Origin: Saccharopolyspora phatthalungensis
GTDB lineage: Bacteria > Actinomycetota > Actinomycetes > Mycobacteriales > Pseudonocardiaceae
Assembly (NCBI RefSeq): GCF_014203395.1
Contig: NZ_JACHIW010000001.1
Location: 1,116,001-1,180,000, forward strand
Length of the DNA: 64,000 nucleotides
Reading direction: 5' to 3'
The notes under the pieces were generated by a model that saw nothing but the letters and a program-made list of their open reading frames with translations, was not told the DNA's origin and searched no databases. Both the position numbers and the translations under genes were made by a program. This document shows positions 45,759-64,000 of this stretch, in pieces; position 1 is the first letter of the stretch; each line of letters starts with the position of its first letter.

Positions 45759-48700
45759 GTGTCCTTGATGGTGCCGGAGGAGGTGAGGCGGCTTTTTCAG
45801 GTGTTGACCGGTGAGGACATGACGGATGCGGATGAGGATGCGTTGTTCGTTGTGGCGGCGGCATTGGAGTCGGGTGCGGCGACGGTGGAGAGTTTGGCAC
45901 CCGTGGTGGGGCATGTGGTGGAGCGGGTGCGGGGTGGGTTTTCGGGCAAGGCGACGGACCGGTTCGCGCAACGGCTGGAGGCATTCGGACCGGTTTTGGA
46001 GTCCGGTGGTGCGGGTGTGCGGCAGTTGGCGGAGTTCGCGCGGAATCTGGCGTTGCAGGTGCAGTATCTGAAGTTCGTCACGGTGGGGGGTTTGCTGCTG
46101 CTGGTGGCCGAGATCGCCTGGGCGGTGGCGATGGCCGGTCCCACTGGTGGAGCCAGTATGGCGTGGTTGGCGGCGCGGTTCGCGGTGATGCGGTTGCTGC
46201 TGACCCGGTGGTGGGGCCAGTTGTTCATGCGGCTGGCGATGGCCCAGATCGTGGGCATTGGGCTACAGGTGGTGATGGATGCCGGGGCCCAAGGGTTGCA
46301 GTTCGCGTTGGGGACGCGGAAGAAGTGGGATGCGGCGATGTCGGAGATGGCGGTGGGGGTCGGCTCATTCAGCGGGCTGCTGGCGGTGCCGCTCTCGGCG
46401 CTGGGCAATGTGGTGGGCAACGCGATCGCCAAGGTGTTGGTGCGGGGTCTGGGCGACAAGATCGATGCTGAGGTGTTGGCGGCGGCGGCGCGGCAGGTGG
46501 CCGAAGAGCACGCGGAGCAGTACCCGGTGGCTTCGATGGCGAAATTCGCCGATGTCGTGTCGAAGAATCTAGAGGATTACACGGGTATGTCGGTGCGGGC
46601 GATGTGGGTGGCCCGCTTCGGTCACGGCCTGGGCGAATCCCTGGAAGAGGGCTTGACCGAAATGCTGGGCGAGGCGGGGTATGGCGCGATCAGCGGCCAG
46701 GGGGCGCAGTGGAATCCGTTCTCGTTTACCGCCGGGGTGTCGGAGGCGATCGGTTCGGGTATCGGGAATCTGGCGGGCTTGGCGGTGCGGGGCGAGCTGA
46801 TCCCGGCGGGCCGGGCCCGGGAGGACACGGGCGGGGAGAAGGATTCCGCCAGCACCGACACCGACACGGCCGGCGAGTTGCAGACCGAGTCCGGGATGCG
46901 GGCGGGCGAGAAGCCTGGCTTTACCGAGACTTTCAGCGAGAAACCCGGATCTCCAAAGGGAATGTCCGATGTGGATTCCGGGATTCCGGCGCCGGGTTCC
47001 AAAAAGGTGGTGGCCACTGAGCTGGAGAAGGGTTGGCCGGGTGTTGCGGTCACCTCGGCCGTCCTGCCCATCGGCACCGCCCCCGGGAAAACGTCGCCGG
47101 GTGATTCCTCCGGTACGACGGGAGCCGGAACCGGCGCGGTGACCGAGGAAAGTGCGGGGGGCCTGTCTTCGTCCCCGGGCGCGGGGCCGGACAGCCCGGC
47201 TCATCAGACCTCCGTACCCGATACCGGGATTGCCACGCCCGCTGGCGCAGCCCCGTCTGGCGGACCGGGCCAGGCGGGCACGGGCGCCGTGGCGGGTGAG
47301 GACTCCGAGACCGGTGTGCCCGGGACAACGGTCGTCCCGCCGGTGCCGCGATATCCGGGTGAGGCAGGGGCTCCGGGCCCCGACAGACTGGGCACCCCGC
47401 CGCCGCCCTACAGCGCGCCGCAAGGACAGGGCCATGTCCACGGCCACACACCGGAGCCCGGCGACGCGACCGGGGCGGGCACCCATACCGGGACACCACC
47501 ACCGGCCTACAGCCCGTCCGCCAACGCCCTCCACACCAGCCCAGAATCCGCTGTGGACAGTCCCAGCGAACCGATGGGGCCTCCAGAGCTATCCCCGGAG
47601 TCGGAGTCGGAGTCGGGGCTGGTGCCGGTGAGCCATTACGGCCCGCCGGTCTCCGACGCCGGGGCGACGACCGGAATACCCGGTTCGGATGCGCCGCCGC
47701 GTAACGACCACACCACACCCGAACAGTCCCTTATGGACAATACCGGTGACAGCCGGGACGGTCCGCGGGTTTCTGATGGCGGGGTCACCACGGCAGGATC
47801 CCGCGTCGGCGCACCCCCGATGCACGGCCCGGTCGGTGCCGACCACGCGAATACCGGCACGTCTGACACGGGCAGCACGGGTGTGCCGGTGGAACACCCG
47901 GCCCCGCTTGAGGGGTCGGGCCCGCCCGTTGCGGGGGGCCCGGTGGCCTCTGAAGGTGCGGTGCCGACCGGGGATCCTCCTGCCGCTTCGCCACCACGCG
48001 AGGGCCACCCCGGCACCGTTCTGGACGGCCACCCGGGCACCTTTTTGTCTGGTGTGGACAGACTGGGCGCTGCGGTGGACGATGCGCGGGCGGTCGAGCC
48101 CGGCTCCCCCGTCGACACGCCCTTGACGAGCGCCACCCAAAATCCTGGCGTGTCCTCCGGCGGCGTGGCTCCGGAAGCGACGCCTGCTGCGGCCGGGGCG
48201 GTTGCGGCCACCGAGGGCGAGGTGACAGTGCCCGGCCAGGTGTCCACGCGGGGTGATGGCACCGTCTCCGGTGTTCCCCCGAGAACGGATCCGGTCACGA
48301 GCACTACCGATGCGGCCCGCGGTGCGATACCGCAATCCCCGGGCACGGTGTCCTCGGGTGGCCGTGTGCCGGGTGCGGTGGGATTGCCCGTCGATGCGGT
48401 GCGCGTGCCGGTGCCTGCGGATGCGGTCTCCAGCGGCGGGGTCGCCGAGTTCCTACGGGCCCGGGTGGACGATGCCGGTACCGGCCCGGTGGTGTTGACC
48501 TCGGGCGTCGATTCGGGCTCTGATGTGGTGGTCCCATCGAACCAGGCCGCCGACGTGGCGCGCAGCCTGGGACGTGACATCGTCGCGCTGGTACCGGGAC
48601 GTGGCCGACGTGGACCCCGGTGGATGCGGTTCGCAGCGGACGGGGCACGTCCCCGCCCCGTAGGCGGGCCGGGACAAATCCTGCCACCGCGGCAAACCAG

Positions 48701-51700
48701 CCCAGGACAGCGGGAACTCGATGCTCTGACCGACTCCGCCACCGCCGTCCCGACCAGCACCGCCAAGACCGGGACGCCGGATGCAACCGGCGAGTCCGAG
48801 ACGGTGCCGCCGGTCGCGGAGACCGAGGCCACCGCGACGGGCCCCGGGCAGGGCACGCGGGAGAGACCCGACCCGACAAGTGTCGCCGACTGGACGGCCT
48901 CGGACCTTCGCCGGGAAGTCCAGCGGGCGAAGACGGTGGGCGGACCACGCCCCGCAGCGATGCGGATCGTGCAAGGCACCCATGACGTGGTGCGGCTGGC
49001 CCGTGGCCAGGCGGGCGTGGCGCTGGAGGACGTGGTGGCCCTGGTCGCCGCGCGGGTCACCGTGTACGGCCCGGACGGGGCGAAGCGGTTTTCCCGCAAG
49101 CTGGCAGCCAGACTCGATACCCGGGGAACGGGAGTGACCATCCGCGCCGGAGCGGGACCGGACCGGCAACCCGATACCCCAGCCCCCGACCAGTCCGCCG
49201 ACCCCGGTCAGGCCGGCGAGGAGACCGCACAGCCAGCGGACCCGGCCGGTGACCGAGCACGAAAACGAGGCCTTTCCGATGGCGCGGCCGATGACGGCGC
49301 CGCGCGCAGGCCCGGCGAGCCCGACGAGGCAGCCGAAAGACTTGGTAGCTCGGCGCAATTGAGCACGCCGCAATTGGTAGCGGAGCAATTGAGAGAGGAG
49401 GCGCGGGCGGAGGCGCGACGGGCTCGTGACGCCCGCCGGCCCTACACCGCTGTGGCTTTGGGGCAGAGGTTCGGACGATCCCGCACGTGGGCCCAGGCGG
49501 TGCTTGCCGAAATCAAGGCCGAAGCCGCCACAACCCAACCACGCCCACAAGAACAGGCGCACACGGACAGGCTCCCCGAACCCGACGAGGCAGCCGAAAG
49601 ACTTGGTAGTGCGGCGCGGTTAAGCTGGGCGCAATTGCAAGCGGCGCAATTGAGAGAGGCAGCGCGAGCAGAGGCGCGACGAGCCCGTGACGCCGGCGAC
49701 CCCTACCACGGGGCGAGTTTGGGGCGGAAGTTCGGCAAGAGCGACACGTGGGGTCGTCAGCGGCTTACCGAAATCAAGGCCGAAGCGGCCACTACCCAGC
49801 CCCGGCCACAGGAACCGGAGCAGGAAGCATGGCCTGCCGGTGAGACCGGTGAGTCTTCCACCGACGCGGCACCCGCTGAGGGGACAAGGAGCGACTCTGC
49901 TGCTACCGCGGCGAGTTCGGCGGCCTCGGCGGACCAGCGGCTTGATGTGGTGGGAATCGGTCACGGGCACCACGATGCGGTGCGCCCGGCACGTGAGGAT
50001 GCGCTACCGACAGCGCCGGTGAGCCTTTCGGTGCAGGGCACGGGAGAACGTGCCGACTACCCCGGGTGGACCCGCTCGCCTCACCAAGCCGCCACCGCCC
50101 CGCAAAACACCCGGCCCCTACTGGTGCTCGGACACAACGACATGGTCGTCTCTGGCGACACTGTCGCCAGAGCGCACGCCACCGGGGCGGACGTGCTGGC
50201 GCGGGGCGACCTCGGTACCGGGCCGAGATGGCTGCTGTACCCGGCCGACGGTAGCCGGCCCCGACCTGTCGATCCGCCCTCAGAGCTGACCCGCAGGCCC
50301 AGGCCGGAACCGTTGTTGTTCCGGGGCCCCCGCGATTCCAGCGAGCTCATCGGGCGCGCCGCGTGGTTGGCGCCCCATCTGTTCGACACCCAGATCGTCG
50401 GTGTGCACATGACCGGGGACGGGCGCGCGGTCCTGGGAGACGGCAGCCTGCTCGAACCCGAAGGTTTCGCCGCACACGTTCTGCAAGACCGGCGTTTCGT
50501 GCCAGGGCCCAACATCGCCCTGCTGGGATGCGCCGCCTACCAACGTCCCCGCCCGGGCGCCTTGTCCTTCGCCGAGCGGTTCACCCGCGCCCTGGGTGAG
50601 CGGGCATGGGTCACCGACGCCGAGGTGTTCCAGACCTCAGATGGCGCGGTACACGCCACCGAGACGGTGATCACCGGCGACGGCCGGATGCTGCCGGTGT
50701 TCGTCGACGGCCAGGGAACCGGCCACTGGTCACTGCTGGACCCCGACGGGCGCGAGGTCCTCTCACGTCGCGGCCCAGAACTGCGGGCCGCACTGACCGG
50801 CATGACCACACCGCGCTACACCGACCAAACAGCCCCGGAACCGCTGATCAGGTGGTCGGACAACGGCGACGCCGACCCCGCCAGGCTCCACGACGAACGC
50901 GACGAGGAGACGCAGGCTGATGCTGGGCCCCAGCACGGTCCAGAGCAGGAACAGGAGCAGGTGCAGCGGGCTCGGCCGGGTGCATCGGAGGTGCTGGAGC
51001 AGCAACATGAGGAAGCGTTCCAGGAGCTGGCATGGGTGACCGCGCGCCAAGCGGAAACGGAGCGGGCACGCCAGGAAGCGCAAGCCGAAGCGGAGCGGGT
51101 GCGGGAACAGACGCAAGCCGAGACGCAGCGGGTGCGGGAACAGACGCGAGTGACTGGGCGGCGGGCACGCCAAGGGGCGCGAGCGGGTGCGGATCGGGTG
51201 GGGGAAGAGGCGCGAGCGGAGGCGCAGCGAGCCCTCAACGCGGGTGAGCCCTACACCGTTGCGGCTTTGGGGCAGAGGTTCGGACGATCCCGCGCGTGGG
51301 CTGCGAGCTTGCTTGCGGAGGTCAGGGAGGCTGCGACCGGACCCGGTTCGCGGCAACAGGCTCAGCTGTGGCCGGCTCGGGCGGCGGGTGTCGGGCCGCA
51401 GCGGACATCGCGAGCGCCGCAGGACGCCGACCCTGGTGTGGGCCGGTCTGCCGCTGGTGGTGGGGTGCGGTCGGTGGGTGAGATGTTGCGGGGATGGTGG
51501 GCCGCGAGTGCGGATCCCGCGGCGGCTGCTGGGCGGGTGTTGTCCGATGAGGATGTGCGGCGGCTGACTAATGCGGTGGAACCGGGTGACCGGGATGGGG
51601 TGGGTGCGCCGGGGGCGCCCAGTGCAGAGCGGCTGCGGCTTATTCACGCTCTCTGGCTGACCGAGATGGTGGGTGGGCGGCCCGTCGTTGAGGATGTGCG

Positions 51701-54700
51701 GGATGTCCGGCTGGTAGCCGACTGGGTCCGGGACACCGGTGCGATGCAGGGACCGAGGTTGGTCTCCGCGGCGGATGTGCACCGTGTGGTGCGGGAGGCG
51801 ACCGGGAGCACCACGGACGCCCGCTGGCAGGAAGTGCAGTTCTTGGCCGATGTCGTCCGGCGGGTGGAGCAGGGACTGGAGCAAAGGGGTGAACAGCGGC
51901 GGGCCACGCTGGCCGAGGTGCGGGCGCAGTGGCAGCGGCAGGCCACCCGGGCGGTGACGCTGCGAATGGGCAGCCAGGCCGAGAACACCGTGGTATACCC
52001 GGCCGACGAGGTCTCGGCACGATGGTGGCGCAGTTTCCGCAGTGGCGGGGTGGATTTGGGTCAGATTCGGCGTGATCTGGGGATCGCCGACGACAGCGAG
52101 CCCCTCTTGGTCGTGGTGGAGGCCAGACGACTGCCCGCCAGTGCGAACAGATCGTTCCTGCTCGGAGACGAACTTCGCAATACGAGCGTGGAACTGGAAA
52201 CACCACGCGAGCTGGGCCAGCGGGTGGCCGACACCGAGCAGTATCAGCGAGTCACCGAAAACAACCCAGACGGCCCGGTCGTGCTGGTGATCCTGGGCGG
52301 CAACGCCGGACTCCGCCGCACTCGCGACGCCCTCGCTCAACGATTCGCCGAAGGACTCACCGCAGGCGGCGACAGTGCCCGGCGGGTTCTTCTGGCCGAG
52401 GGCTACATCTCGCACGCTCCCGCCGGGCTCGGGCTGACCGCCGCGGGGTCACGGCCCGCCGGCCGCCAAGACGCACCGGGGCTGGTGCTGTCCTCGGGTG
52501 CGCCGCCGAGTTTCCGGAGTCACGGGCCGATTCAGGGGTCCGCACGGCATAGTCCTACGCACGGCCCCGCCACGGCCCCGTGGTCGCCACGAGCGTGGCT
52601 GACGATTCCGGCGGGGCCAACCATGATCGACGCGGTGGCCTTTCCGCGCAACAGCGATGAAGAGGCGGCGTGGCGGCGGTGGGCGGAGTCGGGACCTGAC
52701 CTGACCGTGCTGTCGGGACCTGACCTGCCCGGGCTATCGACACAGGTGCAGGGTGCAGCACCGATCCTCGTGCTGGCGAACCGGCACGGATTTTTCGACT
52801 ACGCCGACCCCGAAACCTGGGCTCCCGTGCGCACGGGGCCCGAAGAATTCGGTGCGGCCGTGGCTGAAGCATTGGGCCAGGCAGCGGGTTTGGATGCCAG
52901 CAGGGCGGTCGTCGTGTTCGCTGTGCAGCTGCCTAACGGGGGTGGCCTGCGCGAGCAGGGGCGCCAGGGACTCGCGAACGGAATAAGCCGACATGGCCAC
53001 GACGGGCCGGTTTATGTTGCTGACGTTGTACAACGCGATGACGGCGGCAGCATTCGGCTTGAGATCCAGGGCATCACCCTGGCCGAGAGAGGTCCGCGGG
53101 ACCCTGAACTACCGGTGCGGGAACTGAATTCCTCCGATCCGGGACGTCATGTGCTGGCAGCCGGGGGAACCTCGGCGGATGCGGACTGGTGGAATCAGTG
53201 GTCGTCGAATGGCGTCCAGGTCAGCGGCGTGGAACTGCTCGGGCTCGATTCGACGACGGTGGTGCTCGCGCGGTTGCGGGGTAGCGAGTTCGTCACACCC
53301 TCGGGCACCATGTCCGCGTTCGAATTCGGCCGCCAGGTAACCGACAGCGTGCCCTACCAGACCTCGACCACACAGCATCCAGACGCTCCGGTGCTGCTGG
53401 CCACGGTGGGGGCCGAGACGGGGCTCAGCGAGGACGCCGCGCATGAATTCGCCCGAGGCGTACGCGGCAACGACCCGGATCGCACGGTCCTGGTCACCGA
53501 CCGGGACTTCCGGTTGCGACGCGAAAACGACCTGGCCGAGCTCCCCCTCGAAGCCGACCTCCTGCGGTTCGTGCCGCCACCGAACTGGTTCCCGGGAGCC
53601 AGAACGAGCCGGCCCGCCGACGGCGGCTTCACAGCGGTGCTGACATATCCATCCCTGCCCGGACCGACTCCAACACCCACTGTGGACACGGACTGGTTTG
53701 CCTCGGAAACCGGCCACCGCAAGCCGCTGGTCGTCATGGCCCGATCGGTGCGCGGCCGTTTCCACGTGCTGGATCCCTCGACGGATCAGACATGGGTCCT
53801 CGGGCCATCGGACTTCGGCACAAGCGTGGCCAGGAGTACGGAGTTCCAGCAGGCCGTCACCGACGATTTGGCACGCCCGGTTGTCGTGGTGTTCAACAGG
53901 TGGCACCCCGGCCTGACCGAACAAGACGCGCGCGCACTGGCTGAGGGGCTGCGCGGCGACGGCATCCAGCGGCCCGTTTTCCTCTCGCTGGGGCGGATCC
54001 AGAACAGCGAGACCGGAGCACGGCCCCACGCTCTGGCCGAGGCACCATCAACACAATCGGCGCTGCTCTCCCACCCGGCCAGCGCTGCCGATGCGCGGCA
54101 GCCCCTGCTCCTGTCCGCTCTGGGCAGTGAGCACATAGAGGTTCTCGGCCAGCTTCATTCGTACGGGGTTTCCCGGCTGTTGTCGCAGCTGGGGTATTCC
54201 GGCACCCAGCAACCGATTGTCGTCCTCACAAACAACCCCGCCAACGATTCCGTCGCCCCCCTCGGGAGAAGGAACGTACGGCCGACACGGCTCATGGGCA
54301 CGGTGCTGGCGGGAACCCCGGACTACCTTGAGGCGATTCGCGGGGACTGGCGGCGACCGATCGTGATCGTCCCGGTAGGAGAACCGAACGACCCCGACCC
54401 AAGGCCCCAGGACTTCACTGACTTCACAACGGAACTACTGGGCAACCCCGATACTGACCGGCCCGTCTACCTTGCCGAGCACAACATCCATCACGTGGAG
54501 CCCGGCCTGCGACTGCTGACGCCCGAGCGCATGCGGCCTCCCCCTGCGCGGGAGGACTTGGTGTCCCACTCCTTGCGTGTCGGCGTCGGCCAGGAATCGG
54601 CCGTCAACGCCGTGGGCTTCCCCGCGGGACCAGACCTGCCGACAGAATGGACCGGGTGGGGCTCGCTGGAGCGCACCTGGTACGGGCCCGCCCTGCGCCG

Positions 54701-57700
54701 CGCGATGAGCGAGTTCGACCCGGACCCGCTGTTCGTCTTCGTACCGGTACGGAACGGACAAATAGTAGTCCGCGACGCAACCGGCGTGCTTGAAACACCG
54801 GATCCTGTTGCGCTGGGCCTTCGCATGCAGCAGTCCCCACAGTTCCAGGACGCCGGCGGCCACATCGACCGCACAGTGGTGATCGTGGCGGACTTCATGG
54901 GCCCACAAATTCCGGACTGGTACGCCAGAGCACTCGCCGAAGGACTCCGCAGAACCGGTGGCCCACCCCGACCCCTGTACGTTTACGACGGCTACAACCA
55001 CGCGGCTTTCCACACCGACGAGGCGCTGGGCCGCCTGCGGAACGTGACACCCGAGCTGAACTGGCAGCGGTCCGGGCAAGTCCGCGACCCAGACGATCCG
55101 CTGGAAATCGTCCCGCACTATGTGCGGGGTGCGCTGCCCGCCTACGACAGTGCCGGAGAAGTCGCCTCGGCGGTCGCGGCGGTCGACCGGCAACGCCAGG
55201 CAGCCCTGGCCAGCGCCGCCCGCGCAACCCAGCCCGCCGAGGCCACCGAAGCCGAGATCGCCACCTTGCACCATCGGTGGAACGAGCAGTTCCACGAAGC
55301 CGAACGCACGCTGAGTACGCTCCCGGCCGACTGGGTGGCCGACCTACAGGCACGGGCCAGGACGATCCTGGCAAGCGTGTGGCCACGCCCCAGACAGGGC
55401 GACACCCTCTCGGCGATGGCCATGCAGGGCTTGTGGGACCGGATGGCCCAACGCGTCGCGTTCCGCTTGTACCACGACGGCCGGTCGGAAACGGGCGCGT
55501 GGGCAGACGCCGCAGCAATGGCCGCCACCGTTCCATCCCTGCCGGTCGTGCTGACTGTCCGGGGATCGGACGAGTCGGTCACCTACCCGACATGGACAAG
55601 ATCACCGGGACACGCGCAGCTCACACCGGACCGGGATCGGTTGCTGGTGGTACTGGGCACCGACCACTCGGTCGTGCTCAATGAATTGATCGCCGAAGCA
55701 CAACGCTCGGGCGCCGACGTGCTCGCACGAACCGACACCACAAACGGTCCACAATGGATACTTTTCCGGGCCGACGGGCGCGAACCCCTGCCGGTGGAAC
55801 CGCCAGCAGAGCTAACACGACTGGCCAGCCCGGCACCGTTGATGTACTTCGGACCCGACGATGACGCGGCGGCTGTCGAAGCGGTAGCGCTGGCCTCGGA
55901 TCTGCCCGGCGTACAAGTCGTGGGCATCCACATCACCCCGTCCGGAAACGGACGGTGGCCAGACGGAGAAGCAGGACCGGAAGAATCCGCCGCCCGCGTA
56001 TGGCGCGACCGGCGCTTCGTCGCCGGACTACCAGTGGCCCTGTTCGGATGCGGCGCCGCACGACGTTCGGCCCCGGGCGAGGCATCATTCGCCCAGCGAT
56101 TCACGGCGAGACTGGGGGCGTTGTGCGGTTGCGCTACCGGGCGGCGTTCAGAGCCGGGTGAGGCGTCATTCGCGCAGCAATTCGCGACGAGCTTGGGGCT
56201 ATCCGTCTGGACGACCGACGCCAGCGAGGTATGGCAGACCCGCGATGGTGCGGTACACGCCACCGACACCGTGACCACCGCCGACGGGCGAATGCAGCCG
56301 ATGTTCACCAACGGCCAAGGAACCGGCCAGTGGTCCCTGCTCGGCCCCGACGGGCGCGAGGTGCTCTCCCATCGCGGCCCGGAACTACGCGCCGCACTAA
56401 CAGGCACGACCCCACCGCGCTACCCCGACCAGGCGCACCCCGAGCCGGTGATCAGGTGGTCGGACAACGGCAATACCAATTCCTTCCACGACGAGCGGGC
56501 GCGGTTGGAGACGTGGCGGGGTGGTCAAGAGATCGCGCGGCCGCTCGATGAGTTGTTGAGCGGGTGGTGGACCGCGCGTGCGGATGGCGGGTCGGCTGCT
56601 GGGCGGCAGTTGTCTGATGATGACGTGCGCAGGCTGGCTGATGCGGTCGAACTGCGTTACCGGGACGGCGCGGGTGGACCGGGCACGCGCAGTGGAGAGC
56701 GGTTGCGGGGCAGGCTTGTAAACGTACTTGAGCTGACCGAGGGACTGGGCGGACAACCCACCGTCGCCGACGTGCGGGATATCCGCCTGGTAGCCGACTG
56801 GGTCCGGGACACCGGCCGGATGCCGGGGCCGACGGTGACCGCCGCCGACGTGCACAGCCTCGTCCACGAGCTGACCGAAACCACCACGAACGTTCGCCCG
56901 CACGAACTGAGCTACCTCGCCGATGTCCTGCGGCGAGTGGAACAGGAAGGCCAGCAGCGACGGGCGACCGTGCCCGAACTACGCGCGCAATGGCGGCATG
57001 GAGCCACCCAGGCCGTGACACTGCGGATGGGCGCCCACACCGACAACACCGTCGCCTACCCCGCCAGCACGGCCTCATCACGGTGGTGGGGAAATTTCCA
57101 TGGCGGCCGGGTAGACCTCGACCAGATCCGGCAGGAGATGGGAATCACCGCGGATCGCGAACCGGTCATCGTCGTGGTCGAAGCCCGACGGCGCACGGCC
57201 GGTGCGGAAAAGTCATTCCTGATCAGCGATGAGATCCGCGGGGCGACCGCACACCTCGACACCCCGCGGGAACTGGGACAGCGGGTGGCCGGCACCGAGC
57301 AATACCAGCGGGTCGCCGCAACCAACCAGGACGGTCCGGTCGTCTTGGTGGTCACGGGCGGCAACGCGGCACTCGGCGTGCACCTCAGTCGCGACGAACT
57401 CACCCAGCGATTCGCCGAAGGGCTCAACGCAGGAGGGGACGGCATCCGCCAGGTCCTGCTGGCCGAGGGCTATGTCTCCCACGATCCTGCCGGGCTCGGA
57501 TTAATCGCTGCGGGCCCACAGGCCGGTGACCGGCAGAACGCCGGACTGGTGCTGCCCTCGGGAACACGAGCCAGTGTGGTGACGCTGCGGCTGGAATCCG
57601 CGCAGGAGAACACGATCGCCTACCCCATTAACGCCACGGACAAGAGTCAACTGCTTTCAACGGTTGGCCTGGGTCTGGGATGGGACACCGCAAGGGCTGA

Positions 57701-60700
57701 TTCGCCGATCTTCGTGCTGGCGTGGATTACACCGACGGGTGGGTTCACCGTCGCCGACGGGGATACGTGGGAAACGCAGGACGTGAGCCCACGCGAGTTC
57801 GCTCGCCGGGCGGTCGAGGACGCGCGATCCCACGGGATCGCCAGGCCAGACGACGAACGTCCCATCATCGTCCGCACATACGCCTGGGACCGTCACCGAT
57901 CGCTGCCAGAACGGGCCCGCCACGAGCTGGCCGAAAGCTTCCGCGAGGCGGGACATCACGGGCCGGTTCACGTGTTGGAACGGGACATTGCGACGGAACG
58001 TTTCCATCCCGCTCCCGTGGTCCAGTGGTCGCCGCGAGCGCGGCTGACGATACCGGCGGGTTCAACCGTGCTCGACGCCGTCGCGTATTCGCGCAACAGT
58101 GGCGAGGAGGCCGTGTGGCGGCGGTGGGCCGAGTCGGAGCCTGACCTGGACGATCTGCTGGAACGGGTGCGTGACGAATCACCGGTCCTCGTGCTGGCCC
58201 GCTGGCTGCCCGGTAGGGCTTTCGCCTACTTCGACCCCGCAACCCGAGCCAGCAGGCACCTGAGCGCCGGAGCATTCGGCCGGGAAGTGGCCGGGGCCCT
58301 GGGCGAGATAGCGTCCTCGAATCCGGGAAAGACCGTCGTCGTGCTTGCTATGCAGCGGCCATATGAGGCCAACCTGGGAGAACCGGAACGTCAGCAACTC
58401 GCGAACGGGCTAGGCCGATTTGGCCACCATGGGCCGGTTTATGTTGCTACCGTTGTGGAAATCGATAACGGCGACACCACCCGTATTCATTTTGGGCTGG
58501 ATATCAATCTCGCCGGAGGACAACCGCGCGATGCCGAGCTGCCGGTGCACAGGTTGGCTCGCTGGCAACAGTCGTATCGTTTGCTGGCAGCCGGCGGAAC
58601 TTCGGCGGATATGACCTGGTGGCACGAATGGTCGACGAGTGGTTTCCGGGTAAGCGGTGCGCCACGTCTCGGGTTGCGTTCGACGACGGTTGTGCTCGCG
58701 CGGTTGTGGGGCGATGAGTTCGTCACACCGTCGGGCACCCTGTCAGCCTTCGAATTCGGTCGCGAGGTAACGCGCCGGCAACCGTACCGGACCGTGACCA
58801 TGCAAGATCCAGACGCTCCGGTGCTGTTGGCGACGGTAGGAGCCGAGACCGGGCTCAGCGAGCACGCCGCACACGAGTTCGCCCGTGGTTTGCGGCAGGA
58901 CATCCCGGATCTGGATGTCCTGGTCACGGACCGGGATTTCCGGTTGCGGCGCGAAAACGACGCGGCCGTTCTCCAGCTCAACGAAAATCCCCCGCGGTTC
59001 GTGCCCCCGCCGAACTGGTCGCCGGAGGTTGAGGTGGACCGGTCCACCGACGACGACTTCGTTGCGGTGCTGACGTATCCGTCCCGCCCAGGACGGACGC
59101 GACGGCTTACCGTGGACGCGGACTGGTTTGTTTCGGAGGCCGGCCACCGGACGCCACTCGTGGTGGTAGCACCGTCGGTGCACGGACGCTTCCACGTGTT
59201 TGATCCATCGATTTACCGGGTGCGAGTTCTTGGGCCCGCGGACTTCGGCACGAGCGTGGCCAGGAACGCGGAGTTCCACCAGGCCGTCAGCGACGATCCG
59301 GCCCGCCCGGTTGTGGTGGTGTTCGACCAGTGGCCGTCCGGACTGACCGAGCGGGACGCGCGGGCGTTGGCCGAGGGCTTGCGCAGCGACGGCATCCGGC
59401 GGCCCGTTTTCCTGTCGATGGGCAAGTTTCAGGAGCGCGGGGCCGGGTGGCGGCCATACTCCCTGGTCGAGGCGCCGTCAGCGCAGTCGATGCTGCTCAC
59501 GCATCCGGCCAGTGCCGCCGGTGCGCGGCGCCCGGCGCTCATCTCCTATCTGGACCCCTCTTCCCAGGCGGAGGTCCTTGACCAGGTTCGTTCGCTCGGG
59601 ATCTCCCGCCTGTTGTCGGAGCTGGGGTATCGCGGGGCCCAACATCCGATTGTCGTCCTTACGAGCGCGGGTTTCGGTCGTTTCATGACGCCATACGGGG
59701 AGCTGTCGCCTGCGCAGCTCGGCGATTTCCTGGCGGAAGACCCGAAATACCTTGAGGCGACCCAAGGGGACTGGCGGCGACCGGTCGTCATCGTCCCAGT
59801 ACGGCTGCCGCCGCACTACGTCGATGAAGCGTCGGACATCACTCCCTTGACCGCACACCTGCTGGGCACCCCCGACGCTGACCGGCCCGTCTACATCTCG
59901 GCAGACATCATGTCGGTCGGCGGGCTCACCATGCAGGAAGGCGGGCGCCTCCCCGGCCCGAAACTGTTGACACCGGAGCGAATGCAGCCTCCCGGTACGC
60001 AGCAGGAACTGGGGTCCCAGACCCTGCGTGTCGGTGTTGGCGAGGAGTCGGCGCTCAACGCGGTGGGTTTCCCGGTGGAATCGGAAGACCTAGCCGCCTG
60101 GGAAGATTGGGGCTCGTTGAATTACGACGGGTACGGGCCCATGCTGCGGCGCGCGGTGGGCGAATTTGATCCGGACCCGCTGTTCGTCTTCGTGAAAGTG
60201 TCGGACGAACAAGTCGTAGTAGTGCGCGACAGAGCTCACGAACCGGAACCGCGGTCGGAGTCGGAACCGGGATGGTGGGAGTCCGATGCTGAGTCCGCCC
60301 CCGAGTCCGCCCCTGAGCCTGGCCAAATGCACGAGTCACCGGATCCTGTCGAGCTGGGCATGCTCATCCAGCGTTCGCCGCATTTCCAGCATCTTGAGTA
60401 CCCGACATCGGCCGTTGCGGATGCCGGGCAGCTCGGGCGCACGGTGGTGATCGTGCCGATGTCCGAGAATGGCAGGCCATTACCGGACTGGTATGCCAGA
60501 GCACTCGCCGAAGGCATGCGCCGAGTCGGCGGTCCACCGCGCCCCGTGTACGTCTACGACGGCTACCACAACGAGGCTTACGATACCGATTCCGTGCTGG
60601 ACCGGCTGCGGAGCGTGACACCCGAACTGCACTGGCGGCAGGCTGGAGAGGTCCGCGACCCGGTGGAGCCCCGGGAAATCGTGCCGCACTACGAGCGCGA

Positions 60701-63700
60701 CTCGCTGCCGAGTTATGAGAACGCCGGAGAGGTCGCGTCCGCAGTCGCGGCGGCCGACCAGCAACGCGAGGCAGCGCTGTCCGGTGCCGCCCGGCCCACC
60801 CGGCCCGCTGAAGTCACCGAAGCCGAGATCGCGACCGTGCGGCAACGCTGGAACCAGGAGTTCCAGGAAGCCGAACGGGCGCTGAGCACACTGACGGCTG
60901 ACCGAGTAGCCGACCTGCAAGCACGGGCCAGCACAATCCTCGCAGGCATGTGGCAACGCCCGAGGCAGGGCGACACATCCCCGGCAATGGCCATGCAGGA
61001 CTTGTGGGACAGAATGGCCCAGCGGGTCGCCTTCCAACTCTCCAACGACGGTCGGTCGGAGACGGGCGCGTGGGCGGATGCGGCAGCAATGGCCGCAACC
61101 ATTCCATCCCTGCCAGTCGTACTGGCTGTCCGGGGATCGGACGAGCCGGTCAGCTACCCGGCATGGACGAGATCGCTGGGATTCGCGCAGGTATCACCGG
61201 ACCGGGGCCAGATATTGGTGGTGCTGGGCAGTGACCACATAGTGGTGCCCGGTGAATCGGTGGCCGAGGTACGGCGTTCGGGCGTGAATGTGCTGGCACG
61301 GACCGACATCGAAGAAGGTCCACGATGGACCTTGTTCCGCTCCGACGGGCGCGAGCCGTTGCCGGCGGAGCCACCAGCAGAGCTAACCCGGCTGGCCAGC
61401 CCGGCGCCGTTGATGGTCTTCGGACCTGCTGACGATGCGGCGGCGTACGCGGCGATGGCGTTGGCTTCGGATCTGCCGGGTGTGCAAGTAGTGGGCATGC
61501 ACGTCACCCCGCACGGGCGTGCGCGGTGGCCAGACGGAGAAACCGGACCAGAAGAATCCGCCGAGCGGGTATGGCGCGACAGACGCTTCGTCGCGGGCCT
61601 GCCGGTGGCGCTGTTCGGATGCGGTGCCGGACAACGACCAGAGCCGGGCGACACGTCGTTCGCGCAACGGTTCGCCGCGAGGATGCGGGCGTATGTGTGG
61701 ACAACGGACGCCACCGACGTTTGGCAAACCAACGATGGTGCGGTACACGCCACCGACACCATCGCTACAGCCGACGGCCGGATGCAGCCAATGTTCACCA
61801 ACGGCCAAGGAACCGGCCAGTGGTCCCTACTCGGCCCCGACGGGCGCGAGGTGCTCTCGCGTCGCGGCCCAGAACTACGGGCCGCACTGACCGGCACGAC
61901 CCCACCACGCTACCCCGACCACACGCACCCCGAGCCCGTGATCAAGTGGTCAGACGACGAGGGGGCCGAGTCCGCCGAGTCTCGCGCTCGTGTCGATGAA
62001 CTCGACGAGGCGAGGCGGGCGGAATCGTGGTCGCACAGGCTGGCGCGGGTGGAGGCGCGGCGGGCTCATAACGACGGTGAGCCCATCACCGCTGAGGCGT
62101 TGGGGGCAATGTTCGGGCTGGACAGCGAATGGGGTGCGGCGCGGCTTGCCGAGATCGAGGCTGACCTGGAGTCGGAAGCGCGGGGGGCGGCGCGGGAGAT
62201 GGCGCGGGAGGCTGATGAGGAAGGTGATCCCTGCTCCGCTGAGGACTTGGGGGAGAGGTTCGGTCGAGACAGCGATTGGGGCGCGGCGCGCCTTGCCGAG
62301 ATGCGGGAGGAAGCGGAGCGGGATCGGGCGGAGGCGCGGGCGTTAGCACGGCGGGCGGCTGAGGCCGGCGAGCCCTTCGACTCTTGGGAGTTGGGGGCGA
62401 TGTTCGGGCGGCACGGCGAATGGGGCGAGGAGCAGCTCAACGAGGTGGCATTGGAGCGGGACCAGGAGGAGCGGTGGGCGGGGCGGCAGGCTGATGAGAC
62501 CGGCCAGCCCGTCACCGCTGGGGAATCGCGGGCGGTGTTCGGGCGGGGCGCCGCGCGGATCGCCGAGACCGAAGATGAGGACGATCGGGCGGTGGCGCGG
62601 GCGTTAGCACGGCGGGCGGATGAGTCCGGCGAGCCATTCCCCCCTCGGGAGTTGGGGGCGATGTTCGGGCGAGACAGCGAATGGGCAGCGGCGCGGATCG
62701 CCGAGTTCGAGGATGAGCGGGAGCGGGAAGCGCGGACGCAGGCGCGGCAGGCCATGGACGAACTTGAGCCTTACACCCCTCGGACGTTGGGGGCACGATT
62801 CCAGCAGAGCAGCGAATGGGGCGCGGCTCGGCTTGCCGAAATGAGGGAGGAGTTCGTCCGGGAACTAGAGGCCCGGGCGGCGGCACGGCGGGCCCGTGAC
62901 GCCGGCGAACCCTACGCCGCTGAGGTATTGGGGGCGAGGTTCGGCCAGGACAGCGAATGGGGCGCCCAGCGGCTTGACGAGATCAGACAGTCACCCGGTG
63001 AGCTGTTGAGTCAGTGGTGGGCCGCGCGCGAGGATGGTGCGTCTGCCCAGCGGAGATTGCCTGATGATGAGGATGTGCACCGGCTGGCTGACGCGGTAGA
63101 ACTGCGGTACCGCGACGGCGTGGGCGGACCAGGCACACGCAGTGCGGAGCGGTTGCGGGGCAGGCTTGTCCACGTCCTTGAGCTGACCCAGGAACTAGGC
63201 GGGCAACCCACCGTCTCCGATGTGCGGAATATCCGGCTGGTAGCCGACTGGATCCGCGACACCGGCCGGATGCCCGGACCCACAGTCACCGCCAACGACG
63301 TCCACAACGCCGTCCAGGAATTGACCGAAACCCCCACCAACACCCGCCCACACGAACTGCGCTACCTGGCCGAAGTCCTACGACAAGCGGAACAGGGAGG
63401 GGAACGGCAAGGCCCGCACCGGGCGACCGCATCCGAACTACGCGCGCAATGGCAGCACGGAGCCACCCGGGCAATAACACTGCGGATGGGCACTCACACC
63501 GACAACACCGTGGCCTACCCCGCCAGCGCGGGCTCATCACGATGGTGGCAAGACTTCCACGGCGGCCGAGTCAACCTCGACCAGCTCCGGCAGGAAATGG
63601 GAATCACCCCAGACCGCCAACCGGTCATCATCGTGGTCGAAGCCCGACGACGCACGGCCGGTGCGGAAAAATCATTCCTGATCAGCGACGAGATCCGCGG

Positions 63701-64000
63701 GACGACCGCACACCTGGACACCCCACGCGAGCTGGGTCGGCGTGTGGCCGGAACCGCGCAATACCAGCAGATCGCCACCAGCAACCCGGACGGCCCGGTC
63801 GTCCTGGTGGTCACAGGCGGCAACGCGGCACTCGGCCCACACCTCAGCCGCGACGAACTCACCCACGAATTCGGCGAAGGACTCAACACGGGCGGAGACA
63901 ACAACCGACAGGTCCTGCTCGCCGAAGGCTATGTCTCACACAATCCCGCCGGACTCGGATTGGTCGCCGCCGGGCCACCGGCCGCCGACCGGCAACACGC
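45759..64000 (+). CDS. Giant WXG100-like repeat protein, >6,080 residues, runs off the window
   Basis: One frame checked at about 18 points stays in phase from GTG 45759 to the last base. Residues 1-350 closely match the other giant's N-terminus (VPEEVRRLFQVLTGEDM, then helices and GQGAQWNPFSFTAG). A ~600-residue Pro/Gly/Thr-rich linker with PPPYS motifs follows. Shared domains come at ~48400-48660 and ~48880-49155, then HTH-type repeats (49395-49790). From 50016 a ~1,850-residue unit recurs: A (LLGC/LFGC domain), B (LRMG...VVVEARR), C (TIPAG..DAVAF), D and E (LRVGVGQESA.NAVGFP). A charged coiled coil lies at ~50940-51200. The C-terminus, where a toxin would sit in this family, is outside the window. 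Confidence 0.85.
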   Translation, partial: MSLMVPEEVRRLFQVLTGEDMTDADEDALFVVAAALESGAATVESLAPVVGHVVERVRGGFSGKATDRFAQRLEAFGPVLESGGAGVRQLAEFARNLALQVQYLKFVTVGGLLLLVAEIAWAVAMAGPTGGASMAWLAARFAVMRLLLTRWWGQLFMRLAMAQIVGIGLQVVMDAGAQGLQFALGTRKKWDAAMSEMAVGVGSFSGLLAVPLSALGNVVGNAIAKVLVRGLGDKIDAEVLAAAARQVAEEHAEQYPVASMAKFADVVSKNLEDYTGMSVRAMWVARFGHGLGESLEEGLTEMLGEAGYGAISGQGAQWNPFSFTAGVSEAIGSGIGNLAGLAVRGELIPAGRAREDTGGEKDSASTDTDTAGELQTESGMRAGEKPGFTETFSEKPGSPKGMSDVDSGIPAPGSKKVVATELEKGWPGVAVTSAVLPIGTAPGKTSPGDSSGTTGAGTGAVTEESAGGLSSSPGAGPDSPAHQTSVPDTGIATPAGAAPSGGPGQAGTGAVAGEDSETGVPGTTVVPPVPRYPGEAGAPGPDRLGTPPPPYSAPQGQGHVHGHTPEPGDATGAGTHTGTPPPAYSPSANALHTSPESAVDSPSEPMGPPELSPESESESGLVPVSHYGPPVSDAGATTGIPGSDAPPRNDHTTPEQSLMDNTGDSRDGPRVSDGGVTTAGSRVGAPPMHGPVGADHANTGTSDTGSTGVPVEHPAPLEGSGPPVAGGPVASEGAVPTGDPPAASPPREGHPGTVLDGHPGTFLSGVDRLGAAVDDARAVEPGSPVDTPLTSATQNPGVSSGGVAPEATPAAAGAVAATEGEVTVPGQVSTRGDGTVSGVPPRTDPVTSTTDAARGAIPQSPGTVSSGGRVPGAVGLPVDAVRVPVPADAVSSGGVAEFLRARVDDAGTGPVVLTSGVDSGSDVVVPSNQAADVARSLGRDIVALVPGRGRRGPRWMRFAADGARPRPVGGPGQILPPRQTSPGQRELDALTDSATAVPTSTAKTGTPDATGESETVPPVAETEATATGPGQGTRERPDPTSVADWTASDLRREVQRAKTVGGPRPAAMRIVQGTHDVVRLARGQAGVALEDVVALVAARVTVYGPDGAKRFSRKLAARLDTRGTGVTIRAGAGPDRQPDTPAPDQSADPGQAGEETAQPADPAGDRARKRGLSDGAADDGAARRPGEPDEAAERLGSSAQLSTPQLVAEQLREEARAEARRARDARRPYTAVALGQRFGRSRTWAQAVLAEIKAEAATTQPRPQEQAHTDRLPEPDEAAERLGSAARLSWAQLQAAQLREAARAEARRARDAGDPYHGASLGRKFGKSDTWGRQRLTEIKAEAATTQPRPQEPEQEAWPAGETGESSTDAAPAEGTRSDSAATAASSAASADQRLDVVGIGHGHHDAVRPAREDALPTAPVSLSVQGTGERADYPGWTRSPHQAATAPQNTRPLLVLGHNDMVVSGDTVARAHATGADVLARGDLGTGPRWLLYPADGSRPRPVDPPSELTRRPRPEPLLFRGPRDSSELIGRAAWLAPHLFDTQIVGVHMTGDGRAVLGDGSLLEPEGFAAHVLQDRRFVPGPNIALLGCAAYQRPRPGALSFAERFTRALGERAWVTDAEVFQTSDGAVHATETVITGDGRMLPVFVDGQGTGHWSLLDPDGREVLSRRGPELRAALTGMTTPRYTDQTAPEPLIRWSDNGDADPARLHDERDEETQADAGPQHGPEQEQEQVQRARPGASEVLEQQHEEAFQELAWVTARQAETERARQEAQAEAERVREQTQAETQRVREQTRVTGRRARQGARAGADRVGEEARAEAQRALNAGEPYTVAALGQRFGRSRAWAASLLAEVREAATGPGSRQQAQLWPARAAGVGPQRTSRAPQDADPGVGRSAAGGGVRSVGEMLRGWWAASADPAAAAGRVLSDEDVRRLTNAVEPGDRDGVGAPGAPSAERLRLIHALWLTEMVGGRPVVEDVRDVRLVADWVRDTGAMQGPRLVSAADVHRVVREATGSTTDARWQEVQFLADVVRRVEQGLEQRGEQRRATLAEVRAQWQRQATRAVTLRMGSQAENTVVYPADEVSARWWRSFRSGGVDLGQIRRDLGIADDSEPLLVVVEARRLPASANRSFLLGDELRNTSVELETPRELGQRVADTEQYQRVTENNPDGPVVLVILGGNAGLRRTRDALAQRFAEGLTAGGDSARRVLLAEGYISHAPAGLGLTAAGSRPAGRQDAPGLVLSSGAPPSFRSHGPIQGSARHSPTHGPATAPWSPRAWLTIPAGPTMIDAVAFPRNSDEEAAWRRWAESGPDLTVLSGPDLPGLSTQVQGAAPILVLANRHGFFDYADPETWAPVRTGPEEFGAAVAEALGQAAGLDASRAVVVFAVQLPNGGGLREQGRQGLANGISRHGHDGPVYVADVVQRDDGGSIRLEIQGITLAERGPRDPELPVRELNSSDPGRHVLAAGGTSADADWWNQWSSNGVQVSGVELLGLDSTTVVLARLRGSEFVTPSGTMSAFEFGRQVTDSVPYQTSTTQHPDAPVLLATVGAETGLSEDAAHEFARGVRGNDPDRTVLVTDRDFRLRRENDLAELPLEADLLRFVPPPNWFPGARTSRPADGGFTAVLTYPSLPGPTPTPTVDTDWFASETGHRKPLVVMARSVRGRFHVLDPSTDQTWVLGPSDFGTSVARSTEFQQAVTDDLARPVVVVFNRWHPGLTEQDARALAEGLRGDGIQRPVFLSLGRIQNSETGARPHALAEAPSTQSALLSHPASAADARQPLLLSALGSEHIEVLGQLHSYGVSRLLSQLGYSGTQQPIVVLTNNPANDSVAPLGRRNVRPTRLMGTVLAGTPDYLEAIRGDWRRPIVIVPVGEPNDPDPRPQDFTDFTTELLGNPDTDRPVYLAEHNIHHVEPGLRLLTPERMRPPPAREDLVSHSLRVGVGQESAVNAVGFPAGPDLPTEWTGWGSLERTWYGPALRRAMSEFDPDPLFVFVPVRNGQIVVRDATGVLETPDPVALGLRMQQSPQFQDAGGHIDRTVVIVADFMGPQIPDWYARALAEGLRRTGGPPRPLYVYDGYNHAAFHTDEALGRLRNVTPELNWQRSGQVRDPDDPLEIVPHYVRGALPAYDSAGEVASAVAAVDRQRQAALASAARATQPAEATEAEIATLHHRWNEQFHEAERTLSTLPADWVADLQARARTILASVWPRPRQGDTLSAMAMQGLWDRMAQRVAFRLYHDGRSETGAWADAAAMAATVPSLPVVLTVRGSDESVTYPTWTRSPGHAQLTPDRDRLLVVLGTDHSVVLNELIAEAQRSGADVLARTDTTNGPQWILFRADGREPLPVEPPAELTRLASPAPLMYFGPDDDAAAVEAVALASDLPGVQVVGIHITPSGNGRWPDGEAGPEESAARVWRDRRFVAGLPVALFGCGAARRSAPGEASFAQRFTARLGALCGCATGRRSEPGEASFAQQFATSLGLSVWTTDASEVWQTRDGAVHATDTVTTADGRMQPMFTNGQGTGQWSLLGPDGREVLSHRGPELRAALTGTTPPRYPDQAHPEPVIRWSDNGNTNSFHDERARLETWRGGQEIARPLDELLSGWWTARADGGSAAGRQLSDDDVRRLADAVELRYRDGAGGPGTRSGERLRGRLVNVLELTEGLGGQPTVADVRDIRLVADWVRDTGRMPGPTVTAADVHSLVHELTETTTNVRPHELSYLADVLRRVEQEGQQRRATVPELRAQWRHGATQAVTLRMGAHTDNTVAYPASTASSRWWGNFHGGRVDLDQIRQEMGITADREPVIVVVEARRRTAGAEKSFLISDEIRGATAHLDTPRELGQRVAGTEQYQRVAATNQDGPVVLVVTGGNAALGVHLSRDELTQRFAEGLNAGGDGIRQVLLAEGYVSHDPAGLGLIAAGPQAGDRQNAGLVLPSGTRASVVTLRLESAQENTIAYPINATDKSQLLSTVGLGLGWDTARADSPIFVLAWITPTGGFTVADGDTWETQDVSPREFARRAVEDARSHGIARPDDERPIIVRTYAWDRHRSLPERARHELAESFREAGHHGPVHVLERDIATERFHPAPVVQWSPRARLTIPAGSTVLDAVAYSRNSGEEAVWRRWAESEPDLDDLLERVRDESPVLVLARWLPGRAFAYFDPATRASRHLSAGAFGREVAGALGEIASSNPGKTVVVLAMQRPYEANLGEPERQQLANGLGRFGHHGPVYVATVVEIDNGDTTRIHFGLDINLAGGQPRDAELPVHRLARWQQSYRLLAAGGTSADMTWWHEWSTSGFRVSGAPRLGLRSTTVVLARLWGDEFVTPSGTLSAFEFGREVTRRQPYRTVTMQDPDAPVLLATVGAETGLSEHAAHEFARGLRQDIPDLDVLVTDRDFRLRRENDAAVLQLNENPPRFVPPPNWSPEVEVDRSTDDDFVAVLTYPSRPGRTRRLTVDADWFVSEAGHRTPLVVVAPSVHGRFHVFDPSIYRVRVLGPADFGTSVARNAEFHQAVSDDPARPVVVVFDQWPSGLTERDARALAEGLRSDGIRRPVFLSMGKFQERGAGWRPYSLVEAPSAQSMLLTHPASAAGARRPALISYLDPSSQAEVLDQVRSLGISRLLSELGYRGAQHPIVVLTSAGFGRFMTPYGELSPAQLGDFLAEDPKYLEATQGDWRRPVVIVPVRLPPHYVDEASDITPLTAHLLGTPDADRPVYISADIMSVGGLTMQEGGRLPGPKLLTPERMQPPGTQQELGSQTLRVGVGEESALNAVGFPVESEDLAAWEDWGSLNYDGYGPMLRRAVGEFDPDPLFVFVKVSDEQVVVVRDRAHEPEPRSESEPGWWESDAESAPESAPEPGQMHESPDPVELGMLIQRSPHFQHLEYPTSAVADAGQLGRTVVIVPMSENGRPLPDWYARALAEGMRRVGGPPRPVYVYDGYHNEAYDTDSVLDRLRSVTPELHWRQAGEVRDPVEPREIVPHYERDSLPSYENAGEVASAVAAADQQREAALSGAARPTRPAEVTEAEIATVRQRWNQEFQEAERALSTLTADRVADLQARASTILAGMWQRPRQGDTSPAMAMQDLWDRMAQRVAFQLSNDGRSETGAWADAAAMAATIPSLPVVLAVRGSDEPVSYPAWTRSLGFAQVSPDRGQILVVLGSDHIVVPGESVAEVRRSGVNVLARTDIEEGPRWTLFRSDGREPLPAEPPAELTRLASPAPLMVFGPADDAAAYAAMALASDLPGVQVVGMHVTPHGRARWPDGETGPEESAERVWRDRRFVAGLPVALFGCGAGQRPEPGDTSFAQRFAARMRAYVWTTDATDVWQTNDGAVHATDTIATADGRMQPMFTNGQGTGQWSLLGPDGREVLSRRGPELRAALTGTTPPRYPDHTHPEPVIKWSDDEGAESAESRARVDELDEARRAESWSHRLARVEARRAHNDGEPITAEALGAMFGLDSEWGAARLAEIEADLESEARGAAREMAREADEEGDPCSAEDLGERFGRDSDWGAARLAEMREEAERDRAEARALARRAAEAGEPFDSWELGAMFGRHGEWGEEQLNEVALERDQEERWAGRQADETGQPVTAGESRAVFGRGAARIAETEDEDDRAVARALARRADESGEPFPPRELGAMFGRDSEWAAARIAEFEDEREREARTQARQAMDELEPYTPRTLGARFQQSSEWGAARLAEMREEFVRELEARAAARRARDAGEPYAAEVLGARFGQDSEWGAQRLDEIRQSPGELLSQWWAAREDGASAQRRLPDDEDVHRLADAVELRYRDGVGGPGTRSAERLRGRLVHVLELTQELGGQPTVSDVRNIRLVADWIRDTGRMPGPTVTANDVHNAVQELTETPTNTRPHELRYLAEVLRQAEQGGERQGPHRATASELRAQWQHGATRAITLRMGTHTDNTVAYPASAGSSRWWQDFHGGRVNLDQLRQEMGITPDRQPVIIVVEARRRTAGAEKSFLISDEIRGTTAHLDTPRELGRRVAGTAQYQQIATSNPDGPVVLVVTGGNAALGPHLSRDELTHEFGEGLNTGGDNNRQVLLAEGYVSHNPAGLGLVAAGPPAADRQH
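50016..64000 (+). repeat. Tandem ~5.5-kb coding mega-repeat (2.5 units in view)
   Basis: Equivalent A-module starts are at 50016, 55542 and 61113, giving periods of 5,526 and 5,571 bp. Module B starts near 51480, 56550 and 63000; module C near 52580 and 58024. Unit 1 and unit 3 carry HTH-type repeats between A and B (51190-51350; 62010-62990), unit 2 has almost none. The protein copies are clearly homologous, with many identical runs, but not identical, so the duplication is older than the 168-bp repeats of giant 1. Confidence 0.85.
62010..62990 (+). repeat. HTH-type repeat array in giant gene 2
   Basis: About seven units (one degenerate) with ARRARDAGEPY-like starts, LGARFGQDSEWGAxRLxEI-like cores. 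The turn residues KS of giant 1 become DS or RH here. Three more units lie at 49395-49560, 49640-49790 and 51190-51350. Confidence 0.75.

Follow-up and report, generated by a model that had tools for sequence, protein, structure and literature searches.

The window, a stretch of 64,000 nucleotides of Saccharopolyspora phatthalungensis, carries on its forward strand most of a gene for a protein of 7,379 amino acid residues. As judged from its sequence, this protein is composed of a type VII secretion (T7SS)-type N domain, a linker, and three super-repeats (mega-repeats), each possessing one A module, six or seven degenerate B modules, a C module, and a D module; an E module, with a putative catalytic His-Cys pair retained, closes each super-repeat except the last. 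We consider it fairly probable that this is a giant WXG100-headed member of the polymorphic-toxin type, with a stalk of inactive protease-like B modules and self-processing E modules. The protein would exit the cell via the type VII system, its B strings may form a long structural or peptide-binding stalk, and E would be a working protease which cuts the chain between or after super-repeats, freeing the C-terminal cargo in those members that still have one. Since the frame ends after a D module, the protein would be a cargo-less or differently ending member.

Open reading frame and genomic context

The initial annotation had described a giant frame without an end in the window, and translation from GTG 45759 to the window end indeed revealed zero stops across 6,080 codons. 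Reading on past position 64000 along the contig (5.89 Mb) located the stop at window coordinate 67898 (L009:3898), giving 7,379 residues (22,140 bp), no in-frame stop in 22 kb, and a D module at the terminus. The protein-database entry is three residues shorter at the start (7,376 residues), which is compatible with initiation at ATG 45768; no clear ribosome-binding site was seen for either start codon in 60 bases inspected by eye. The GC contents of the three codon positions (GC1/GC2/GC3) are 0.73/0.55/0.76. When the first 21 of the 22.1 kb were divided into 14 segments of 1.5 kb, GC2 had the lowest value in every one; over this length the codon-position composition is typical of a coding high-GC gene. 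The features are as follows.

33252..41912, - strand: divergent paralogue, 2,886 aa, of the N-D-X-H-array class (module models)
45759..64000, on to stop 67898, + strand: giant ORF, 7,379 aa; alternative start ATG 45768 (translation)
45771..46829, + strand: N domain, WXG100-like part at aa 5-143, then a conserved hydrophobic region up to aa 357 (Pfam PF25547; at least 40 homologous places in the genome)
46836..48428, + strand: Pro/Gly/Ser/Thr-rich linker, aa 360-890 (by eye)
48453..48677, + strand: D module 1, aa 899-973 (module models)
48906..49148, + strand: X module, aa 1050-1130 (module models)
49467..49817, + strand: two H motifs, aa 1237-1266 and 1324-1353 (H model)
50001..50285, + strand: D module 2, aa 1415-1509 (module models)
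50289..50885, + strand: E1, predicted C80-like protease domain; His1550 codon 50406, Cys1591 codon 50529 (module models, alignment)
51474..55532, + strand: mega-repeat 1, A, six B (one B2-type copy absent), C; aa 1906-3258 (module models)
55527..56489, + strand: D and E2; His3391 codon 55929, Cys3431 codon 56049; internal duplication in E2 after Cys
56544..61103, + strand: mega-repeat 2, A, seven B, C; aa 3596-5115 (module models)
61098..61979, + strand: D and E3 (the copy used for modeling); His5248 codon 61500, Cys5288 codon 61620
61974..62993, + strand: H-like repeats in a charged array, aa 5406-5745 (H model for two, by eye for the rest)
62997..64000, + strand: start of mega-repeat 3 (A, B1...); A-B1-B2-B2-B3-B4-B5-B6-C-D runs on in L009 to the stop
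L009:3980-4435, - strand: DUF6188 protein, convergent, first gene past the giant ORF (profile match)
L009:5049-6389, - strand: WXG100_2 protein, 447 aa, convergent (profile match)

N-terminus and type VII secretion

The WXG100-like (CpnT-like) N-terminus recognized in the initial annotation was confirmed by a match to Pfam PF25547 (WXG100_2), which scored 41.5 bits (cut-off 27). A long hydrophobic stretch is visible by eye in the N domain (aa 100-215). Two genomic loci encode EccC and EccD, the T7SS components searched for, with scores above cut-off. These loci and the N-terminus fit the "exported-type" protein that had been proposed, and export would presumably proceed through a T7SS. An EccC-like T7SS ATPase stretch (G000:C1:1114411-1116180) reaches into the window with its final part, at positions 1-180. 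It scores below the family cut-off and has one in-frame TGA; it is described here simply as a third ESX trace besides the two above-cut-off loci.

Order and age of the super-repeats

Direct-repeat families within the giant ORF are spaced at 5.1-6.5 kb. The tandem mega-repeats reported at the outset are real: the unit is an ordered A-B1-B2-B2-B3-B4-B5-B6-C-D-E, where the letters A-E were taken from the initial annotation and the boundaries redefined. The three copies (A to C) of the full ORF show 72-76% nucleotide identity over aligned codons, with dN/dS values of 0.44-0.48, and the longest exact repeat inside the gene is 49 bp. The divergence of 24-28% of bases, together with these dN/dS values and short exact repeats, indicates old coding repeats rather than an assembly artefact. 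Five of the 12 assembly contig ends do lie in, or at most 20 bases from, family genes (C1 start; C3, C4, C5, and C6 ends), so that the assembler evidently struggled with this family and lengths, perhaps also copy number, are underestimated. However, the giant gene is interior to its contig, its repeat copies are too divergent for such an error, the same ordered cassette occurs in another genus (G033), and the coding statistics hold; that the frame is spurious or misassembled is barely credible, and we reject it on repeat divergence, dN/dS, and codon-position composition.

The repeat unit is itself mostly made of copies of one domain, of 131-216 residues according to the module models. B1 to B6 are all homologous, every B model finding the other B types, and the nine proteins of the genome with an A-B-C series contain 160 B modules. 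Comparison of 23 complete A-to-C super-repeats gave dN/dS values of 0.34-0.56 in all 253 pairs. B4-type copies share 61-72% identity with the B4 reference, as against 17-27% for the other B types, from which we conclude that the module order is old; the order A-B1-B2-B2-B3-B4-B5-B6-C is unchanged in a frame of 8,417 residues from another genus of the same family (G033). When five overlapping pieces of the giant ORF were searched (E-values up to 1), neither Pfam nor NCBIfam held a model for the repeat unit, and beside WXG100_2 only chance-level rows were returned, two in Pfam and one in NCBIfam. The original statement that the unit matches nothing nameable is thus correct for these profile collections, but B and E can be named by their predicted fold.

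Predicted protease-like folds of the B and E modules

Of modules A to E, for which the initial annotation had suggested structure prediction, B and E were modeled (E3 being the E copy used): in the VIA comparison the best match for both predicted models was to C80 cysteine protease domains, so that a predicted fold is now assigned to repeats missed by Pfam and NCBIfam. E is predicted to fold like the C80 toxin-processing proteases, which are caspase-like. At the sequence level, solved structures gave no meaningful match to E, B, or H, and Pfam returned only weak, scattered matches to E (best E-value 0.039). "Lonely Cys domain," a name for such proteins, is not used here since no such NCBIfam model matched and the name was absent from the literature searched.

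All 28 copies of the E module in the genome retain the His and the Cys (27 were compared in one alignment, the 28th separately), and both are invariant in all 23 rows of an alignment comprising 11 of these copies and 12 of 20 outside domains. The two residues lie at the ends of successive strands, their positions being judged from the strand ends, not from superposed coordinates; His first, then Cys, would be the pair of the clan CD/C80 peptidases. Among the 160 B modules (62 of which were taken into the B alignment), the aligned Cys is present in one, the aligned His in none, and both together in none. From its predicted fold and profile, B is probably a degenerate relative of a C80/clan CD peptidase. 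Within the giant ORF, 20 of the 23 B and E domains have no catalytic pair.

If E is active, the product might also be a self-dicing polyprotein, where each E cuts beside its own super-repeat to yield several inactive-protease strings of ~1,800 residues, acting as decoys or binders in the target. We regard this as very doubtful; if true, one 22-kb gene (41 kb in the largest paralogue) would deliver several near-equal strings working as binders, not as enzymes. The regular alternation of dead protease domains with a single intact one offers a directly testable case for the role of the degenerate caspase-like arrays described in 2012, be it as stalk, in substrate binding, or in ordered cutting of a giant secreted protein.

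A family of giant paralogues

At least 40 places in the genome match the N-terminus, with the first 1.2 kb as query and again with the 350 N-terminal residues; among the matches listed, 39 span nearly the full N domain and one is a fragment. The frames of the 40 listed members total 162,967 residues or 489 kb, so that one giant-gene family accounts for some 5.7% of the 8.54-Mb genome. Five of these frames run into contig ends. The longest encodes 13,644 residues (41 kb); ten complete frames have at least 5,000 residues and one more is cut by a contig end. Two classes can be distinguished. Ten of the 40 listed members carry E, nine of these with the A-B-C series, while H motifs are found in 27 of the other 30, which hold 533 of the 562 copies. 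Ten paralogues have between 0 and 7 super-repeats each, a spread that fits the gain and loss of units by recombination; the longest identical stretch between paralogues and the giant gene is up to 154 bases.

The 562 H copies are distributed over 31 paralogues as long arrays, spaced mostly at 55-62 residues, with the consensus RAEARRARDAGEPYTG..LG.KFGKS..WG..RLAEIR. Their resemblance to helix-turn-helix domains is weak: in a scan of 31 of the 40 listed tails, Sigma70_r4 was matched in three (best E-value 4.9e-5) and HTH_11 in one. The same scan gave matches to NCBIfam LIMLP_16025 in four members and to Pfam DUF5053 in seven. The 2,886-residue paralogue at 33252-41912, its start 3.8 kb before the giant ORF, has many H motifs; the RRLSWP-like motif of its tail was noticed by eye in the tails of several further paralogues.

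C-terminus, cargo, and downstream genes

By family logic, a toxin domain at the extreme C-terminus followed by an immunity gene had been suggested as possible. For the giant ORF neither was recognized: its last 1,298 residues gave no Pfam or NCBIfam match (E-values up to 1), it terminates 19 residues past a D module, and the next gene, on the opposite strand, encodes a DUF6188 protein. This protein and the 447-residue WXG100_2 protein beyond it are possible partners of the giant ORF. The family logic of a C-terminal toxin does hold for paralogue C2_1963029m, where a Scabin-like domain (E-value 3.8e-7) follows the last E. An alpha/beta hydrolase occurs in one tail (C2_1353857m, by sequence), and several unnamed tails are common to more than one paralogue. 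The tail of C4_153898p (L020:7426-9228) gave a weak match to glycosyltransferase-88 (E-value 0.015); by eye it resembles a nucleotide-sugar glycosyltransferase.

The missing toxin domain, the many B and E domains of the giant ORF without a catalytic pair, and the hydrophobic stretch in the N domain would also fit an exported or membrane-attached surface or cell-wall filament, in which the protease-like strings serve adhesion or binding, E is structural, and the link to toxins is only ancestral. We consider this possible but unlikely, since there would be no need, if the role were purely structural, for the strict retention of His and Cys in E as against their joint absence from every B, and E or E-like domains also adjoin Scabin-like or nuclease domains.

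The ending by a D module and the motif P.PGTV is common to the giant ORF and C1_98896m and hence is not the result of a private frameshift, an explanation that was rejected also because no module remnants were detected in six frames over 3 kb past the stop (E-value 1e-3). Module matches do occur after the stops of C1_4944794p (X), C1_4320280p (H), and C5_10135p (H), and in five other members the N domain of a next paralogue was found after the stop. D and E come after each of the 14 non-terminal super-repeats; among the nine terminal ones, D-E is present after four, D only after one (that of the giant ORF), and neither after four. Such a distribution, together with the many members of the second, H-rich class that end in or just past an H array and the identical stretches of up to 154 bases shared with the giant gene, could indicate that the giant ORF and other abruptly ending paralogues have lost their C-terminal cassette and survive as donors for recombination or as copies in slow decay. 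This is rather improbable in view of the low dN/dS in all super-repeat pairs, the 22 kb without stops, the lack of remnants in the 3 kb past the stop, and the shared ending.

Distribution in other genomes

The N-terminus was matched in 22 of 22 sampled genomes of the genus, with at least 40 matches in this genome, 26 in congener G007 (a few being split pieces of one gene), and one to five in the other 20. On G007 contig C1 (9.44 Mb), 25 of the 26 matches lie no farther than ~1.03 Mb from a contig end, a placement reminiscent of chromosome arms. E was matched in 11 of the 22 genomes. The closest named relative is Saccharopolyspora spinosa NRRL 18395, with two matches, the best segments of which show 56 and 59% identity.

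A search for B in 200 genomes of the family, in which the best 17 candidates were scored, gave matches in at least 14. The best E-values were 1.2e-52 (this genome), 1.8e-31 (G033), and 1.7e-10 (G080, the next), and in nine of 12 genomes the weaker matches fall within frames of 3,000-16,800 residues. In another genus, a frame of at least 15,763 (up to about 16,768) residues has distant B modules near its end (G074:C4 ~6250009-6297300).

E-like domains occur in at least 17 of 296 genomes of the class (best 10 candidates scored in the genomes listed). In 17 of the 22 E-like matches outside this genome (G298, G434, G332, G417, G477, and others) the frame has only ~230-600 residues, mainly in one family (f19); judging from these frames, the domain seems to exist also in a compact, almost free-standing form. 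Among the smaller proteins P0006-P0025, the 12 that were aligned have invariant His and Cys, and in four of four smaller relatives scanned, chosen since their listing named a nuclease, a nuclease domain follows the E-like domain.

Among 5.8 billion proteins, each search for the module series returned the same five matches, all from this genome. These searches scored the best 936 or 1,156 candidates, of 0.55-1.75x query length, and recovered five of the genome's nine series proteins, the second missing the very G033 protein that supplied its query; with such limited recovery the five matches are no proof of rarity. A plasmid collection gave no match to the B6-C-D-E stretch. The N domain was matched in six Streptomyces plasmid records at 25-31% identity, and ~9 kb on either side of the match in the best of these contained no E or B (E-values up to 1).

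Comparison with known systems

The giant ORF shares its PF25547 WXG100-like N-terminus with CpnT and other WXG100-like-headed type VII substrates. CpnT, which we take to be such a substrate with a C-terminal toxin, differs in that no C-terminal toxin was found in the giant ORF, which instead carries thousands of residues of protease-like repeats. The likeness to the C80 domains of MARTX and large clostridial toxins lies in the predicted fold of E and B, the His-Cys order of E, and the internal position within a long protein, whereas B has no catalytic pair and neither module matches the solved domains in sequence. The smaller relatives with a single E-like domain (P0006-P0023; Saccharopolyspora, Actinopolyspora, and Lentzea where named) likewise have its His and Cys, but are of only 563-1,541 residues.

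A 2024 survey of proteins exceeding 5,000 residues (PMC11573180), in the part consulted, credits the top two bacterial strains with 31 and 30 such proteins, which are mostly non-homologous, whereas here one family contributes ten complete frames of that size and one cut. The closest precedent is found in Zhang et al. 2012 (PMC3482391), the consulted portion of which describes caspase-like repeat arrays, in which some repeats lack catalytic residues and for which multiple autoproteolytic events were proposed; it also mentions gigantic actinobacterial proteins and names T7SS as one delivery route. The protein described here resembles those giant actinobacterial toxins, as presented in that portion, in its great length and in its caspase-like arrays with some catalytically dead copies. 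The arrays described there sit upstream of toxin domains, whereas no recognized toxin domain follows the array of the giant ORF. By comparison with the same portion, the repeats here form a super-repeat of fixed order, each unit of which has a single intact domain, present 0-7 times in ten paralogues, and a second paralogue class carries nearly all of the H motifs. Our findings thus extend what that portion reports by the ordered super-repeat, its spread over the paralogues, and the scale of the family within one genome.
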